Below are positions 41,033-47,553 of a DNA stretch of 64,000 nt, one piece after another (position 1 is the first letter of the stretch; each line of letters begins with the position of its first letter). This stretch comes from Streptococcus halotolerans (lineage in GTDB: Bacteria > Bacillota > Bacilli > Lactobacillales > Streptococcaceae). Location: assembly GCF_001598035.1 (NCBI RefSeq), contig NZ_CP014835.1:1773001-1837000 (forward strand), read 5' to 3'. The notes under the pieces were generated by a model, which saw only the letters and a program-made list of their open reading frames with translations, was not told where the DNA came from and searched no databases. The position numbers and the translations under genes were made by a program.

Positions 41033-42487
41033 ATGTCAAACGATATTCGTGTGCGCTATGCACCAAGCCCAACGGGTCTTTTACATATCGGTAACGCCCG
41101 TACAGCACTATTCAACTACCTCTATGCACGTCATCATGATGGTCAATTTATTATCCGTATTGAAGATACAGATCGTAAACGTCACGTTGAAGATGGTGAA
41201 CGCAGTCAGCTTGAAAACCTTCGTTGGTTGGGGATGGATTGGGATGAAAGCCCTGAAACACATGAAAACTATCGTCAGTCTGAACGTCTAGAGCTTTACC
41301 AAAAGTACATCCAACAATTATTAAATGAAGGGAAAGCTTATAAATCATACGTTACAGAAGAGGAATTAAAGGCCGAACGCGAACGCCAAGAAAAGGCAGG
41401 AGAAACGCCACGTTATATCAACGAATTCCTTGGTATGTCTGAAGACGAAAAGGCAGCCTACATCACAGAACGTGAAGCGGCAGGCATTATTCCAACGGTA
41501 CGTTTGGCGGTTAATGAGACAGCTATCTACAAATGGACGGATATGGTGAAAGGCGATATCGAGTTTGAAGGTGGCAACATCGGTGGTGACTGGGTTATTC
41601 AGAAAAAGGATGGCTTTCCAACCTACAACTTTGCCGTTGTTGTGGATGACCATGATATGAAAATCTCTCACGTTATCCGTGGAGATGACCATATTGCCAA
41701 TACACCAAAGCAACTCATGGTCTATGAAGCTCTTGGTTGGACGGCACCTGAATTTGGTCACATGACCCTGATCATCAATTCCGAAACAGGTAAAAAACTC
41801 TCAAAACGCGATACGAATACCTTGCAGTTTATTGAGGATTACCGTCGCAAAGGGTACTTACCAGAAGCGGTCTTTAACTTTATCGCTCTTCTTGGCTGGA
41901 ATCCTGGTGGTGAAGATGAAATCTTCTCTCGTGAAGAATTAATTAATCTCTTTGATGAGCATCGTCTCAGCAAGTCTCCAGCTGCTTTTGATCAAAAGAA
42001 ATTGGACTGGATGAGTAATGACTACATCAAGAATGCAGACTTTGACAAGGTATTTGCACTTTGCCAACCTTTCCTTGAAGAAGCTGGTCGTCTTACAGAT
42101 AAAGCTGCAAAGCTGGTGGAACTCTATAAGCCTCAGCTAACAGCAGCGGATGAGATTGTCCCATTGACAGACCTTTTCTTCTCTGACTTCCCTGCTTTGA
42201 CTGATGCGGAAAAAGAAGTGATGGCAGGTGAGACTGTTCCAACAGTGCTCGAAGCCTTTAAAGCTAAGTTGGAAGCTATGTCAGATGAAGACTTCCAGCC
42301 AGACAATATCTTCCCACAAATCAAAGCTGTTCAAAAAGAAACAGGAATCAAAGGGAAAAACCTCTTTATGCCAATTCGTATTGCTGTTTCAGGTGAAATG
42401 CATGGTCCAGAATTGCCAAACACTATCTATCTGTTGGGTCGCGATAAATCTATTGAACACATTGACAACATGTTGCAAAGTCTTTAA
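41033..42487 (+). CDS. gltX: Glutamyl-tRNA synthetase
   Basis: A class I synthetase, probably non-discriminating as in other streptococci (charging tRNA-Gln for later amidation); that point is family knowledge. It has 484 residues, with the HIGH motif in [28 protein letters not shown], and the KMSKS loop [18 protein letters not shown] precedes the ATG. The fas locus follows after a terminator. Confidence 0.98.
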
Positions 42488-42493
42488 TAGCAG

Positions 42494-42525
42494 AAGAAGA
42501 GCGGGACTTACCTGACTCTTCTTTT
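42494..42525 (+). terminator. Terminator of gltX
   Basis: AAGAAGAG (42494-42501) pairs with CTCTTCTT (42516-42523), then TTC. Confidence 0.7.
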
Positions 42526-42590
42526 CTAATCTTATCGATATAAAGAAAGACTATCAGATACTTATCAAATTATCCAGAAGGGAGGGATAG

Positions 42591-43907
42591 ATGGAATTTT
42601 TTGGAATGGAACAGTACCTACTAGAATTCACAGCAATTTGGTTTATTTACCAAGATTTGAGGCAGAGAAAACTAAACAAATATCACTTCCCTTTTTATTT
42701 ACTATTATCAATAGTCTTGGCAATTATCATCCGAGTAAATGCCTTCTTACCTCTATGGCTTACTTTTTTACTGCTGTCTCTATTAGAAAAAGAGAAAAGA
42801 ACCCTTTGTAGGCATTTATTCTATACTGGCCTGTCAGTAGTACTTGTAGACTTACTTTTAAGGTATTTTTATATCTTTGTTTCTCCAACCTTATTAAGGG
42901 GAATACATTATCCATCCTATTTAACCCCTTGGGTGACAATCGTCATTTTCCTGTTTTTAATACCAACAACTAGGGCCTTGCGGCGTCTCTTTCGTTTGGA
43001 TTACCCAACCATTCTGAACATTCCAGATAAACAGGTTCAACGTTATATTTATGGCATGAATGGTCTCTTTTTACTTTATTATATTGTTCATTATCTAGTT
43101 CTCTTTAACCATTCATCAGTAATGGCTGATTATGACCGTGTAGCACTTTTTGCCTCTGTCATGGTTCTGGTTTATATGTTAACGCTTTTAAATCGAAAAG
43201 CTAGGGAACGTCATATATCCGATGTTGAAAGAGAAGAGCAGCAATACTTGGCTAATTTGGAACAATACAGCCAACATTTGGAAGGTATTTATCAGAATAT
43301 CCGGTCTTTTAAGCATGACTATGACAATATCTTGATTAGCCTTAATGATAGTATTTATTATGGAGATATTGATGAGATTAGGCTCTCATTTGAAGAAGTG
43401 TTAAAAAAATCCCAGGATAGAATGAAAGATGAAGATTATTTATTCTATCAGTTGATTCCGATCGCCAATAATCATATTAAAATGGCTGTGACCAAGGATT
43501 TGTTGGAAGCCAAACAGTTAGGCATTCAGGTCTCCGTACTACTTCCGGATTCAGAAGACATCCCTATGCTAACTCAAAAGGATGCTGTTACCTTGCTTCA
43601 TCATATGCTTCAACTGGGTATCCATCATGCTAAACTCAGTAAAAAGCCAAGTTTAAGGCTAGTGATTAAAACAATTAAGAATGGCTGTGAGATCAGTGTC
43701 TCTTATAGCACGTTTGTAAAATCATTAGTCTCCGGTTGTTTACCACTTGACAGGCAAACCCCTTCCTTAGACAATAAGGGCACAAGGACACATCTTGTCC
43801 AAAAGATTTTTCAAGATAATCCTAACCTTTCGGTGGTTTTTACAAGTGGTTCTTACATGGCTAAGGATACCTTGATTATCTATTCAAATGAACAGGAGGA
43901 AGCATGA
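42591..43907 (+). CDS. fasB: Sensor histidine kinase FasB with intact His but degenerate ATPase
   Basis: First sensor of the Fas system, of the HPK10 (AgrC/ComD) type. The 438 residues start with about six membrane segments (1-200), then a helical region with the phospho-acceptor motif SFKHDYDN (His242). The C-terminal catalytic domain is unusual: where HPK10 kinases have LLDNAIEAA this has MLQLGIHHA, and the G box is replaced by KGTRTHLVQKI. So ATP binding looks lost. GGGAGGGA precedes the ATG. It overlaps fasC by 4 nt (ATGA). The assignment rests on the fasB-fasC-fasA-fasX order. Confidence 0.9.
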   Translation: MEFFGMEQYLLEFTAIWFIYQDLRQRKLNKYHFPFYLLLSIVLAIIIRVNAFLPLWLTFLLLSLLEKEKRTLCRHLFYTGLSVVLVDLLLRYFYIFVSPTLLRGIHYPSYLTPWVTIVIFLFLIPTTRALRRLFRLDYPTILNIPDKQVQRYIYGMNGLFLLYYIVHYLVLFNHSSVMADYDRVALFASVMVLVYMLTLLNRKARERHISDVEREEQQYLANLEQYSQHLEGIYQNIRSFKHDYDNILISLNDSIYYGDIDEIRLSFEEVLKKSQDRMKDEDYLFYQLIPIANNHIKMAVTKDLLEAKQLGIQVSVLLPDSEDIPMLTQKDAVTLLHHMLQLGIHHAKLSKKPSLRLVIKTIKNGCEISVSYSTFVKSLVSGCLPLDRQTPSLDNKGTRTHLVQKIFQDNPNLSVVFTSGSYMAKDTLIIYSNEQEEA

Positions 43908-45232
43908 GCTTAGAGTTGATTAAGGACTTTTTAGCCTTTGTGATCATGTGGATGATGTACTGGCTGATATTTCTCCACATCAGTGATATCACTATCAAAA
44001 AACGGTATTTATTCCCACTTGCCTTTTCGCTTATTATTGTTAACTACTGTTTTCAATTAGAGACCTCTCCTTTTATTTTTGGTGTGTTTTTAGCCATTTA
44101 TTACTATCGAAATCCAAAGGAAAGTTTTTACAAGTATATCTTTTATGCTTTATTTCCTGTTGTGACGGTGGATATTTTTGCTAGGTCAATGGCTCTATAC
44201 CTACTGTCACCGCTCTTAGACATCAGCCCTGAAGTGCTTAGTAAAGAATACGCTCTGTTATACCTTAGTTACGGTAGTGTTTTTCCTATCTATTACTTTT
44301 TTAATAAAACCCTAAACCTTAATTTTAAATATATTCAAAAAGGGTCAACGGCTAAAAAGAACTTTTTATCGAATATGTTTAGTGGCCTTTTACTGAGTTA
44401 TTATGGTATTTTTACTTATAGTGTTTTAGCAAGGCGCTTATTTCCAGGCTCATTTAATTTTTGGGATTATCGTCAGCAAATCATGCTTATTTACATGTTC
44501 CTATATTTCTGGTTATTGTCCGAAATTAATCATGAAGCAAAGCTAGAAATGGATCGCAAACTGGCAGCAGCCAAGGCTGAAAAAATCAAAGCGCTAGAAG
44601 ATTATAATCAGCATATTGAAAAGTTACATGGTGATATGCAAAGTTTTAAGGAATATTATGAGCAATCTTTTAACACGTTGCGTACCTTCATTAATGCAGG
44701 ACATTTGGAAGCCATTCAAAAAGCTTACGGAGAATTGATTGAGGGACGGAAAATGAAAGTTGACCGTTCGCAATATGAATTAGGACGTTTAGCTAATCTA
44801 AAAGTTTCTCCGATTAAAAGTATTTTATCGACCAAGATGATTGAAGCCCAAAGCCAAAACGTTGAAGCCTTTTTAGAGATTCCAGATAGGATAGATGGAA
44901 TTTATCTAGATGTTTTGGATATGGTCATTGTCTTGTCTGTCTTTTTAGACAATGCCATTGAAGCTGCCAAAGAATCACCTAGACCACACATCAGTGTTGC
45001 TTTTTTTAAGAGGGAAGACAGCCAACTACTCGTTGTTGAAAACAGCATAAGTAAGGATAGCGTTGATATCGTTAAAATATTCCAAAAAGGGTACTCGACC
45101 AAAGGACCAAATAGGGGGATAGGTTTAGCCAATGTTCGACAGATTTTAGAAAATTATCCGGAAACCGTTCTATCTACCAAGATGGGACATCATAGCTTCA
45201 CCCAAATTCTAGAAATGAGACCAGAGCCATGA
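43904..45232 (+). CDS. fasC: Sensor kinase FasC with intact ATPase but no phospho-acceptor His
   Basis: Second sensor of the Fas system, 442 residues, again with six or so membrane segments (1-210) and a cytoplasmic HPK10-like part. The H-box position reads SFKEYYEQS: Glu250 replaces His and Tyr replaces the following Asp. In contrast the N box FLDNAIEAAKES (Asn350) and G box RGIGLANVRQIL (Gly405, Gly407) are textbook. This is the mirror image of FasB, so FasC may phosphorylate FasB in a heterodimer. ATGA overlaps at both ends couple fasB, fasC and fasA. Confidence 0.9.
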   Translation: MSLELIKDFLAFVIMWMMYWLIFLHISDITIKKRYLFPLAFSLIIVNYCFQLETSPFIFGVFLAIYYYRNPKESFYKYIFYALFPVVTVDIFARSMALYLLSPLLDISPEVLSKEYALLYLSYGSVFPIYYFFNKTLNLNFKYIQKGSTAKKNFLSNMFSGLLLSYYGIFTYSVLARRLFPGSFNFWDYRQQIMLIYMFLYFWLLSEINHEAKLEMDRKLAAAKAEKIKALEDYNQHIEKLHGDMQSFKEYYEQSFNTLRTFINAGHLEAIQKAYGELIEGRKMKVDRSQYELGRLANLKVSPIKSILSTKMIEAQSQNVEAFLEIPDRIDGIYLDVLDMVIVLSVFLDNAIEAAKESPRPHISVAFFKREDSQLLVVENSISKDSVDIVKIFQKGYSTKGPNRGIGLANVRQILENYPETVLSTKMGHHSFTQILEMRPEP

Positions 45233-45993
45233 ATATTTTTATCTTAGAAGACAACGTCTGTCAACAAGAACGATTATTGGGAACGATTAAAGAGATTTTA
45301 AAAGAAGAAAACTTATCCACACGTCATTTAGCAGCTTATAGCAAAGCCTCTAATTTACTCGATAATGTTAAAGAAAGAGGAAGCCATCAGCTCTTTTTCT
45401 TTGATATTGAAATCAAAGATGAGGCTCGTAAAGGCTTGGAAGTTGCCTCAGAGTTACGCCAGATGGACCCCAATGCGGTGATTGTTTTTGTAACAACCCA
45501 TTCAGAATTCGCACCAATTAGCTTTAAATATAAGGTTGCTGCTTATGATTTTATTGATAAGATGCTGGATCCGGATGATTTCAAAGATCAGGTTCGCGAC
45601 AGTATTTTATACACTGCCAGTCTATCCAAAGGGGTACAGACGGAAATAGAGTATTTTGATTATAAATCTGCTAAAGCACAAGTTAAAGTACCACTTCATG
45701 ACATCTTGTATTTTGAAACCTCTCAAACGGCACATAAATTAATTTTAAGGACAAAAACAGAACGCCTAGAATTTTATGCTAGACTTTCCGATATTGAAAA
45801 AATGAGTGATAAATTCTACCAAAGTCATCGATCGTTTTTAGTCAATTTAGACAATGTGAGTGGTGTTGATAAGACCGAACAATTGGTTTATTTTGAAAAT
45901 GGGGAGTCCTGCCTAGTCTCACGTTTGAAAGTCAAAACCTTAATCGCGAAATGGGAAAATAACATTTCAGGACGAAAAAATGACATTTCATGA
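45229..45993 (+). CDS. fasA: Response regulator FasA (LytTR type)
   Basis: A 254-residue regulator of the AgrA/ComE class. The receiver domain has the acidic pocket LEDN, the phospho-acceptor Asp59 in LFFFDIEI, and the switch Lys in FIDK. The LytTR DNA-binding domain follows (about 140-250; DILYFETSQTAHKLIL, FYQSHRSFLVNLDNV). In S. pyogenes FasA drives transcription of the small RNA fasX. Here fasX follows at once, and the last 11 codons of fasA contain the direct repeat proposed as its own binding site. Confidence 0.93.
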   Translation: MNIFILEDNVCQQERLLGTIKEILKEENLSTRHLAAYSKASNLLDNVKERGSHQLFFFDIEIKDEARKGLEVASELRQMDPNAVIVFVTTHSEFAPISFKYKVAAYDFIDKMLDPDDFKDQVRDSILYTASLSKGVQTEIEYFDYKSAKAQVKVPLHDILYFETSQTAHKLILRTKTERLEFYARLSDIEKMSDKFYQSHRSFLVNLDNVSGVDKTEQLVYFENGESCLVSRLKVKTLIAKWENNISGRKNDIS

Positions 45994-46029
45994 TTTTTGA
46001 CTGGTTAAATTTAGGTGATGTGATAAACT
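45962..46029 (+). promoter_or_regulatory. fasX promoter with tandem FasA-type direct repeats
   Basis: ACATTTCA occurs at 45962-45969 and 45983-45990, exactly 21 bp (two helical turns) apart, as in AgrA and ComE sites. TTGACT follows at 45997-46002. The -10 is imperfect: TGTGAT (46019-46024, 16-bp spacer) or TAAACT (46024-46029, 21 bp). A non-ideal core promoter fits dependence on an activator. Confidence 0.65.
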
Positions 46030-46032
46030 AAT

Positions 46033-46186
46033 ACGTGTAGAGGCGAGGAACTCTCTCTCTTAAAAATTGACTGTTCGATACATTTCAATAATCTCCAACC
46101 TCGCTTCCTAATTTAATCTCCTTTCTAGTTTTAATCTCCTAATTTAACTAGAAGTTAAAAAACCTGTCATTCGTGGCAGGTTTTTT
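46033..46186 (+). ncRNA. fasX: fasX small regulatory RNA
   Basis: Lies directly downstream of fasA, where S. pyogenes encodes FasX, a small RNA that base-pairs with mRNAs of virulence factors such as streptokinase and pilus genes. It has no coding frame. Structure: a 5' region with GAGGCGAGG that can pair with CCTCGC, a hairpin TTCTAGTT...AACTAGAA, and a 3' terminator AAAAAACCTG...CAGGTTTTTT (46157-46186). Three AATCTCC words (46090, 46115, 46133) could pair with Shine-Dalgarno sequences. The 5' end is inferred from the promoter; length is roughly 150-160 nt, shorter than the about 205 nt I recall for S. pyogenes. Confidence 0.82.
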
Positions 46187-46240
46187 GACGTTGTCAATAA
46201 GCCAGTGTCCAAATATTTTTGGTATAGTCGAATGAATTAA

Positions 46241-46720
46241 TACTCATCGAAAATCAAAATCTGAAATCCATCCATTTTCTATGAACAATCGATTTCAAAT
46301 CAGACCAATAGAAGTGTTGAATCACTTCTTGCGGCTTGTTCATCACGTCATCAAGTGTTTTAAATATTTTATTCTTAAAGCCTCTCTTACGAATCTCAGC
46401 CTAGACTTGCTCAATAGGATTCATCTCTGGTGTAGAAGGAGGAATGAACTCAAAGCCAATGTTGGCAGGTTTCTCTAACGTCCTTGATTTATGCCACACA
46501 GCCTATCCATGATGAGTAAAATATAATCACGAAGATAAGTTAAGCTGCCGATTTGAGTTCTGTCGTTTAGTCTTGTGTAAAGTTCATATCGTTATTATAA
46601 TTCAGATTTTTTCAGTGAGTATAACTTTGAGACAAAGAACTGAGATGCGGGCAGCACTTGAGTAGGGCAAGATGAAAGTGACGATGTCTCAATCTTAATT
46701 CAAAAGACTATACCAATAAA
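46241..46720 (-). mobile_element. Internally deleted IS630-type element with transposase C-terminus
   Basis: The left end TACTCATCGAAAATCAAAAT matches the RUP-like terminal repeat. On the minus strand 46530-46250 reads frame-broken transposase: DYILLIMD, then WHKSRTLEKPANIGFEFIPP, then STPEMNPIEQV, a stop, AEIRKRGFKNKIFKTLDDVM and IVHRKW, the typical C-terminus of an IS630 DDE transposase (PPYSPEMNPIEQ.W..IR). About 46612-46720 resembles the other end (GAGTATAACTTT, then CTTGAGTAGGGCAAG). The N-terminal part is missing. It is a plausible relative of the parent of the RUP-like repeats here. Confidence 0.75.
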
Positions 46721-46725
46721 AACGC

Positions 46726-46753
46726 TTGCCTTTTTTGTCAATAGTTTTATAAT
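46726..46753 (+). promoter_or_regulatory. Promoter of the acetoin reductase gene
   Basis: TTGCCT (46726-46731) and TATAAT (46748-46753), 16-bp spacer, just inside the edge of the IS630-type relic. Confidence 0.65.
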
Positions 46754-46788
46754 GGGTGTCATAGCACATAAGAAAAGAGGTAATAACG

Positions 46789-47553
46789 ATGAATAAAGTT
46801 GCTATTGTTACTGGTGCTGGGCAAGGCATTGGCTTTGCTATTGCGAAACGTCTCCATGCAGATGGGTTCAAAGTAGGAATTTTGGACTATAATGAGGAAA
46901 CAGCCAACAAGGCTGTTGAGGCGCTATCTTCCAAGGATGCTTTGGCAGTCGTAGCAGATGTTTCCAATCGTGATGAAGTATTTGCAGCCTTTGATAAAGT
47001 GGTTGAATACTTCGGAGACTTAACGGTTGTGGTTAATAATGCCGGAATCGCACCGACAACACCTCTTGATACCATTACCCCTGAGCAGTTTGAACGCACG
47101 TTTGCGATTAATGTTGGTGGAACTATTTGGGGTGGTCAAGCAGCACTCAAGCACTTTAGAGCGCTAGGGCACGGTGGAAAGATTATTAATGCCACTTCTC
47201 AGGCTGGCTGTGAAGGGAATCCTAACTTGACAGTCTACGGTGGTTCTAAATTTGCGGTTCGTGGTATCACTCAAACCTGGGCTAAAGATTTGGCAGCAGA
47301 AGGCATTACTGTAAATGCTTATGCACCAGGTATTGTCAAAACGCCTATGATGTATGATATTGCGCATCAGGTTGGTAAAAATGCTGGAAAAGATGATGAA
47401 TGGGGCATGAACACTTTTGCCAAAGACATTACCTTGGGACGTTTATCAGAACCTGAGGATGTTGCCAATGCTGTTGGTTTCCTTGCGGGAGAAGATTCTA
47501 ACTATATCACAGGTCAAACGATTGTTGTTGATGGTGGTATGGTCTTCCACTAA
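46789..47553 (+). CDS. budC: Diacetyl/acetoin reductase (2,3-butanediol dehydrogenase), SDR family
   Basis: An NADH-dependent short-chain dehydrogenase reducing diacetyl to acetoin or acetoin to 2,3-butanediol, a sink for reducing power in overflow metabolism. It has 254 residues with [17 protein letters not shown] (cofactor loop), VVNNAGIAP, the catalytic [10 protein letters not shown] (Tyr and Lys), [13 protein letters not shown] and the C-terminal [16 protein letters not shown], all close to acetoin reductases. AAAGAGG precedes the ATG. It sits between an IS630-type relic and debris, suggesting an insertion beside the fas locus. Confidence 0.9.

Follow-up and report, generated by a model that had tools for sequence, protein, structure and literature searches.

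The window analysed here is a stretch of 64,000 nucleotides from Streptococcus halotolerans (contig NZ_CP014835.1, positions 1,773,001 to 1,837,000), and the subject is its fas locus, in which the genes for two membrane kinase homologues, FasB and FasC, stand before the gene for the response regulator FasA. All features lie on the plus strand. The conserved upstream neighbour gltX (41033..42487), which also adjoins related loci (in genome G078 on a second contig), is followed by fasB (42591..43907, 438 amino acids), fasC (43904..45232, 442 amino acids, its start overlapping the fasB stop) and fasA (45229..45993, 254 amino acids). FasA is an AgrA/ComE-type regulator with receiver and LytTR domains and the receiver aspartate Asp59 (codon 45403-45405). 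It is 52% identical to S. pyogenes-type FasA (E 1.1e-79), and with gltX upstream the locus has the Fas layout. A direct repeat over the fasA 3' end and a candidate small RNA follow.

Kinases of the AgrC/ComD type (HPK10) are homodimers that hold the whole enzyme in one protein: a transmembrane (TM) sensor, a dimerization and histidine phosphotransfer (DHp) domain with the acceptor His in the H box, and a GHKL-type catalytic and ATP-binding (CA) domain with the N and G boxes. FasB and FasC share the TM sensor, DHp and GHKL CA plan, but neither has all three boxes. In a MAFFT kinase alignment of 44 stretches including the window (kinases in 41), FasB His242 (codon 43314..43316), a canonical acceptor in the HDxxN motif HDYDN of the H box SFKHDYDN, shares one column with FasC Glu250 (codon 44651..44653, context SFKEYYEQ). 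FasB has Leu342 where the N-box Asn is expected (MLQLGIHHA, residues 339-347, 43605..43631) and no GxG at the degenerate G-box position (KGTRTHLVQKI, residues 396-406, 43776..43808). FasC keeps an intact N box (FLDNAIEAAKES, 44942..44977, with Asn350) and an intact G box (RGIGLANVRQIL, 45113..45148, with Gly405 and Gly407). The residue losses are complementary, the acceptor His being absent from one protein and the ATP-binding boxes from the other, which is the residue pattern of a split kinase. A preliminary description, made from the letters of the window, had pointed out this distribution, and its coordinates, motifs and residues proved correct by sequence, alignment and Pfam.

In the Pfam scan, FasC matched HATPase_c_5 at 9e-17 and FasB matched no family at E ≤ 1. 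The NCBIfam AgrC model aligned with FasB 43-321 (5.9e-8) and FasC 17-434 (1.7e-38), below its cut-off for both. Compared with solved structures, the FasC profile matched AgrC 6e52 over DHp and CA (E 1.5e-54), and the FasB profile matched AgrC over residues 204-369 only, covering DHp and the first part of CA and ending before the G box (E 8e-13). The predicted FasC model had a mean predicted local distance difference test score (pLDDT) of 80, and its CA domain superimposed on AgrC 4bxi with a root-mean-square deviation of 2.2 and a template modelling score of 0.86 by target. The FasB model was poor (mean pLDDT 65), with values below 50 in the presumed lid (378-399) and in the His242 stretch (232-248).

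The split was identical in the three nearest relatives retrieved (G270, S. thoraltensis; G155; G060). The acceptor His was found in 4/4 window-type FasB, and N-box Asn and GxG in 0/4 each, while the acceptor position of the four FasC proteins reads E, E, E and D. Constraint on the two proteins was reciprocal. Mean pairwise identity among the four species was 68% for FasB DHp and 37% for FasB CA, and 51% for FasC DHp and 80% for FasC CA, the best conserved of the pair. The ratio of nonsynonymous to synonymous substitution rates (dN/dS) against G270 was 0.06 for FasB DHp, the most constrained of the domains measured, 0.29 for FasB CA, 0.15 for FasC DHp and 0.08 for FasC CA; values from more distant comparisons are partly saturated. 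The FasB frame is open in all four species. In G270 it is shortened near the C terminus, where the tail differs from that of the named S. thoraltensis protein and is shorter, affecting a few codons. Since the complementary split is kept in three nearest relatives with reciprocal constraint, it is more than chance. A profile scan of the genome contigs with the FasC alignment gave two loci only, in S. thoraltensis and S. hyovaginalis, and in a FasB protein search 8 of the 7995 candidates scored reached E ≤ 1e-5.

From these comparisons, FasB and FasC are very probably complementary halves of one AgrC/ComD-type (HPK10) kinase acting as an obligate heterodimer. The two proteins would be joined through their DHp helices, and the intact CA domain of FasC would bind ATP and phosphorylate FasB His242 in trans. 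Phosphorylated FasB would hand the phosphate to FasA Asp59, and phosphorylated FasA would then bind the direct repeat at 45962-45991 and switch on a candidate FasX-like small RNA. The preliminary description had proposed this path from FasC CA through FasB His242 to FasA Asp59, and the sequence and comparative data support it; the S. pyogenes work fits the same logic (PMC12675982). Unpartnered FasB may dephosphorylate FasA instead, since the HDxxN phosphatase motif is kept: the published phosphatase motif is HE/DxxN/T (PMC3591291), and DxxN follows the acceptor His in 36/36 His-bearing rows of the survey described below.

It is very unlikely that FasC is the sole working sensor and FasB a decaying relic, with FasA phosphorylated by another intact kinase, for example of the ComD type, or by a small phosphodonor. 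The faster evolution of the FasB CA domain would suit such a relic, and the same genome has an intact ComD-type kinase with its own regulator (L032, 2157900-2159048; SFRHDYANIL, CDNAIDA and RGIGL) as a possible cross-talk partner. However, the dN/dS of 0.06 for FasB DHp against G270, the His in 4/4 species and the frame open in all of them speak against decay, and in S. pyogenes mutations in either fasB or fasC reduce FasX (PMC12675982).

Box distribution in fas loci of the genus

A FasA-type regulator was found beside gltX in at least 31 of the 284 Streptococcus genomes searched (G and L numbers denote genomes and loci). To be included, a locus needed a FasA match at E ≤ 1.1e-79 and an adjacent gltX. 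G275, with a broken FasA (9.0e-69), was added, and other loci with a broken FasA could be missed; G170 (9.9e-80) was left out because its regulator precedes a whole kinase. No recognised kinase stood beside the regulator in three loci (L096, L097 and L098, of G035, G199 and G266). Half of the 28 kinase-bearing loci (14/28) have a single pair with open frames. Four kinases were found in each of G034, G151, G074 and G274, and four, one of them frameshifted, in G275. Eight open kinase genes lie between gltX and one FasA in G010 (L078, 4646-15549), arranged as three His-ATP pairs followed by one ATP-His pair. In G152 a single ATP-His pair is accompanied by what remains of other pairs. Four genes, the short His donor among them, make up each of the loci of G175, G181 and G182, and three make up those of G183 and G078, the latter divided between two contigs; one kinase member is broken in each of G038 and G061.

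The preliminary description had suggested, as a check, that the H, N and G boxes be aligned across fas loci. Of 79 kinase rows from the 28 loci, 34 were His-only, meaning that they have the acceptor His without both N and G boxes, 39 were ATP-only (N and G boxes, no His), two had both halves and four had neither full set; 73/79 are therefore His-only or ATP-only, and the pattern of the window recurs across the fas loci of the genus. Rows were at least 290 amino acids long, which kept a 365-residue piece of G275 and a 384-residue piece of G078 among the 79 and set aside nine shorter fragments (two in G038, three in G061, three in G152 and one in G275); two longer broken rows of G152 also stayed outside. 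A hand count showed that every locus (28/28) had one or more genes with the His and one or more with the N and G boxes when broken frames were included, and that 26/28 did so with open frames only. As controls, 14 kinases from 11 hand-picked ComD-type loci were aligned, a twelfth locus (c040, five rows, one with masked bases) being omitted; all three boxes were present in 14/14, and in these loci, unlike the fas loci, the regulator gene precedes the kinase gene or genes. A Pfam scan of ten proteins agreed with the box assignments, and the six scanned of the eight G010 kinases alternated between no match and HATPase.

Clades found without the acceptor columns were uniform at the acceptor position, with His in 18/18 and 15/15 rows of two clades and no His in 18/18, 8/8 and 4/4 rows of three others. 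FasC relatives retaining the His would contradict the proposed heterodimer, and a search for them found none: the His is absent in 4/4 window-type FasC, in 8/8 related ATP donors of multi-kinase loci and in 18/18 S. pyogenes-type FasB, and it is present in 9/9 related His donors and in 17/17 S. pyogenes-type FasC rows. The acceptor residue varies among the ATP donors, and ten different residues occupy the position in the 18 S. pyogenes-type FasB.

Loss of the ATP-binding half has gone furthest in three genomes, each with a natural His donor of 296 amino acids (G175, L099 7758-8645; G181 and G182, L100 and L101). These proteins carry the H box SFKHDYEN and end after DHp with no CA domain, and the partner of each is full-length and His-less; the Pfam scan was made on the G175 protein. 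They represent the extreme state, and resemble the engineered S. pyogenes FasC 1-286 considered below.

Such proteins bear on a further alternative, in which FasB is a full kinase through cryptic nucleotide binding by its degenerate CA domain and FasC is an accessory or inhibitor. A partial fold in the low-confidence FasB CA model and some selection on that domain would be in its favour, but FasB lacks both boxes. In 9/9 related His donors from multi-pair loci there is nothing in the G-box columns, and in three genomes the protein with the His stops short of the CA domain. In addition, no domain of the pair is better conserved than FasC CA (80%). This alternative, too, was judged very unlikely.

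Broken kinase genes were observed in L093, L094, L112 and L075 (G038, G152, G061 and G275), together with transposase-like frames inside the G061 locus and a broken fasA in G275; they are cases of repeated natural inactivation. In L096 and L097 the gap between gltX and FasA is filled by unrelated genes.

The Streptococcus pyogenes system and other split kinases

Heterodimerisation and division of labour between FasB and FasC were published for S. pyogenes in October 2025 (Baral et al., PMC12675982), so the pairing, which the preliminary description did not know to have been described, is not new there, and the class of split kinases was known before that. In that study two-hybrid contact was found between FasB and FasC and no self-contact of either. 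FasC H246A was inactive, FasC 1-286, without its kinase domain, was active in single copy, and FasB 1-423 was inactive; plasmid-borne FasB 216-448 and plasmid-borne FasB H241A were active. The authors proposed that the FasB kinase domain phosphorylates FasC His246 and that FasC is a pseudokinase, leaving FasB His284 open (PMC12675982). The terms H box, N box and G box do not occur in the main text of the paper, which also names S. zooepidemicus, S. equi, S. equisimilis and S. uberis as carriers of fas genes. The S. dysgalactiae locus, with its two kinases, was termed an atypical two-component system, and lower fasX was linked there to fasB or fasC mutations (PMC12345147), which agrees with both halves being needed.

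A residue-level explanation of the S. pyogenes results can now be offered. The locus of G174 (L065) encodes FasB, FasC and FasA of 448, 427 and 246 amino acids, with FasB His at 241 and 284, FasC DHp His246 and FasA Asp60. Since these lengths and positions equal the published ones, the locus is taken to be that of S. pyogenes or a nearly identical one. Its FasB has Ser254 at the acceptor site (AFQSDYL) and intact CDNAIEAA and RGIGL, and its FasC has His246 at the acceptor site (TVKHDSEN) and keeps DNAIE, with the G box absent. By these box positions FasB of S. pyogenes is the ATP half and FasC the His half, and the window genes carry the opposite halves. The published results fit a split kinase because FasC His246 sits in the acceptor column, where FasB has Ser254. 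The expectation in the preliminary description that a FasC N-box mutant would lose fasX does not extend to S. pyogenes, whose FasC tolerates deletion of its entire kinase domain (PMC12675982).

Two other ways of equating the proteins were discarded. If the names FasB and FasC meant orthology with S. pyogenes, the published results would look opposite to the window, a conflict resolved by the box positions in G174. An equivalence of S. pyogenes FasC His246 with window FasC His242, eight residues before Glu250, was rejected, as His246 already occupies the acceptor column; window FasC His242 is Tyr in its three orthologues. FasB His241 and His284 of S. pyogenes lie outside the acceptor site and are kept in 14/18 and 5/18 S. 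pyogenes-type relatives, and the low conservation of His284 argues against a general phosphosite role. At residue 294 of G174 FasB, His is invariant in 18/18 S. pyogenes-type FasB, yet it is not the acceptor site.

The window and S. pyogenes FasBCAX share the order gltX, two kinases and FasA, and the FasA aspartate. They would also share a heterodimer of a His half and an ATP half and a ComE-type repeat before a small RNA gene (PMC12675982), with a candidate repeat and a candidate RNA in the window, and they differ in that the roles stand under opposite gene names. The core of the finding has thus been published in S. pyogenes under swapped names (PMC12675982), and the comparative picture is the new part. 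Among open-licence papers, no description was found of the box-level split, the reversed order, fas loci with two to four pairs or natural His donors without a CA domain.

Similar divisions are known from other bacteria. In Rhodobacter sphaeroides, CheA3 and CheA4 do not autophosphorylate alone, one providing ATP binding and the other the His, and the His partner is also a phosphatase (PMC3591291), much as proposed here for the Fas pair. However, they are chemotaxis kinases split by domain loss and in transient contact (PMC3591291), whereas the Fas proteins are membrane sensors split by residue loss, and both keep TM, DHp and, mostly, CA. Synechocystis Hik36 and Hik43 were termed a split histidine kinase, with two-hybrid contact and one response regulator, but they are of the Pil/Tax chemotaxis type, with HPt and CA on separate, unlinked genes (PMC7656254). 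GacS and RetS are likewise two sensor kinases in contact, but each can also homodimerise, and RetS acts as an inhibitor of GacS rather than as its missing half (PMC12675982).

Several observations weigh against the half-kinase interpretation. The Fisher p of 1.5e-15 ignores relatedness, as 79 rows are not 79 events; the states fall in few clades, with one independent pair on supported branches or three on all branches, and because of this number a test by independent events is not possible. N-box Asn is kept in 10/34 His-only rows, and by the definition above neither half is present in four genes, two in G182 and one each in G175 and G181. Nor is the split found everywhere, given that a whole kinase accompanies the His-less partners in G078 and G183. 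In the window, the FasB CA domain is still under purifying selection (dN/dS 0.29) and its low-confidence model retains several HATPase-like elements; the domain may therefore have retained a function. S. pyogenes-type FasC still scores above the Pfam cut-off for GHKL in the first half of that domain (4.6e-7), in vitro kinase assays were called still needed for S. pyogenes Fas (PMC12675982), and phosphorylation of FasB by FasC in the window pair is predicted from sequence comparison.

Pair types and ancestry

A careful tree was built from TM and DHp columns with the acceptor columns omitted. It comprised 53 of the 93 rows and G293; all twelve kinases from G175, G181 and G182 stayed outside it, as did those without the His in G078 and G183. 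S. pyogenes-type FasB, S. pyogenes-type FasC, window-type FasB and window-type FasC each formed a single clade (100/100), and the His donors and the ATP donors of the four- and eight-kinase loci formed one clade each (100/99). Window FasB grouped with the multi-kinase His donors, apart from S. pyogenes-type FasB, both in this tree (97/96, a group that also holds the whole kinases of G078 and G183) and in a quick tree (89). Window FasB and FasC therefore probably belong to a pair paralogous to S. pyogenes FasB and FasC. Orthology by position was not rejected in the approximately unbiased (AU) test, with p 0.158 for FasB and 0.31 for FasC in the careful tree, where deep branching is weak, and p 0.572 in the quick tree, where the constrained tree scored above the free search.

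That the published direction is valid by name in the window too, the FasB CA domain phosphorylating FasC, is the least probable of the alternatives considered: the S. pyogenes genetics (PMC12675982), the same gene positions and the AU values above would agree with it, but window FasC has no acceptor His, window FasB has no N or G box, and window FasB groups with the multi-kinase His donors.

Five four-kinase species carry a His-ATP pair and then an ATP-His pair before FasA. Because both orders stand in a row in these loci, the most economical history has the window retaining the first pair (His-ATP) and S. pyogenes the second (ATP-His). In the alternative history the roles swapped within one pair. 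A single origin of the His donors, or of the ATP donors, was not rejected either: the respective AU p was 0.138 and 0.327 in the careful tree, and 0.53 and 0.538 in the quick tree, where the constrained trees scored slightly above the free search.

In another genus of the family, G293 (L113, 4020-6082) has one whole kinase (SFRHDYTN, LDNAVEA and NRGIGL) directly before a FasA-like regulator (54%), possibly the ancestral state. A second genus outside Streptococcus with a FasA-like match is represented by G320 (9.5e-67). Since G293, G078 and G183 keep whole kinases, the data suggest duplication, then His loss in one copy and ATP-domain decay in the other. The loci would form a natural series from homodimer to obligate heterodimer, running from the whole kinase of L113, through a whole kinase with His-less partners in G078 and G183 and the residue split of most loci, to the His half without an ATP domain in G175, G181 and G182.

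On balance, it seems reasonable to regard streptococcal fas loci as expandable arrays of obligate heterodimeric half-kinases, with two pair types of opposite gene order (His-ATP and ATP-His), one retained in the window and the other in S. pyogenes. As many as four pairs (eight genes) would serve one FasA, probably so that a single small RNA responds to several sensors, either independent or mixed, and the His donors can be reduced to TM and DHp. With two to four pairs feeding a single regulator, such arrays offer a direct test of how signals are integrated and partners chosen.

Direct repeat and candidate small RNA

A ComE/FasA-type direct repeat, ACATTTCAG-N12-ACATTTCAT (45962..45991, plus strand), lies over the fasA 3' end, and the S. 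pyogenes-type locus L065 has a repeat in the same place (ACATTTTAG-N12-ACATTTCAG). It has one mismatch in the window and in G270, three in G155 and five in G060, the last little above background; one other plus-strand site with at most three mismatches was found in the whole window. Binding of FasA to this repeat would place it directly before the candidate FasX-like small RNA (46035..46186, plus strand), whose two ends are inferred and which would finish with a hairpin and T run at 46157-46186.

No significant similarity was found between the window and the S. pyogenes-type fasX region (best BLAST E 0.18). The Rfam search of 42400-46900 gave two matches only, far below gathering scores, the terminator scan of 42400-46800 gave no site, and the promoter scan of 42400-46800 gave 17 matches against a shuffle mean of 15.4, with no excess. 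Behind the repeat, about 160-210 nucleotides are conserved in G270, G155 and G060 at 82-88%, and the aligned region folds with a terminator-like hairpin. Four of the 39 predicted pairs changed on both sides, and the covariation term was unfavourable (+0.31; four sequences, one of them shortened). Three AATCTCC motifs are present in the window, G270 and G155, and two plus a variant in G060; these motifs could pair with ribosome-binding sites.

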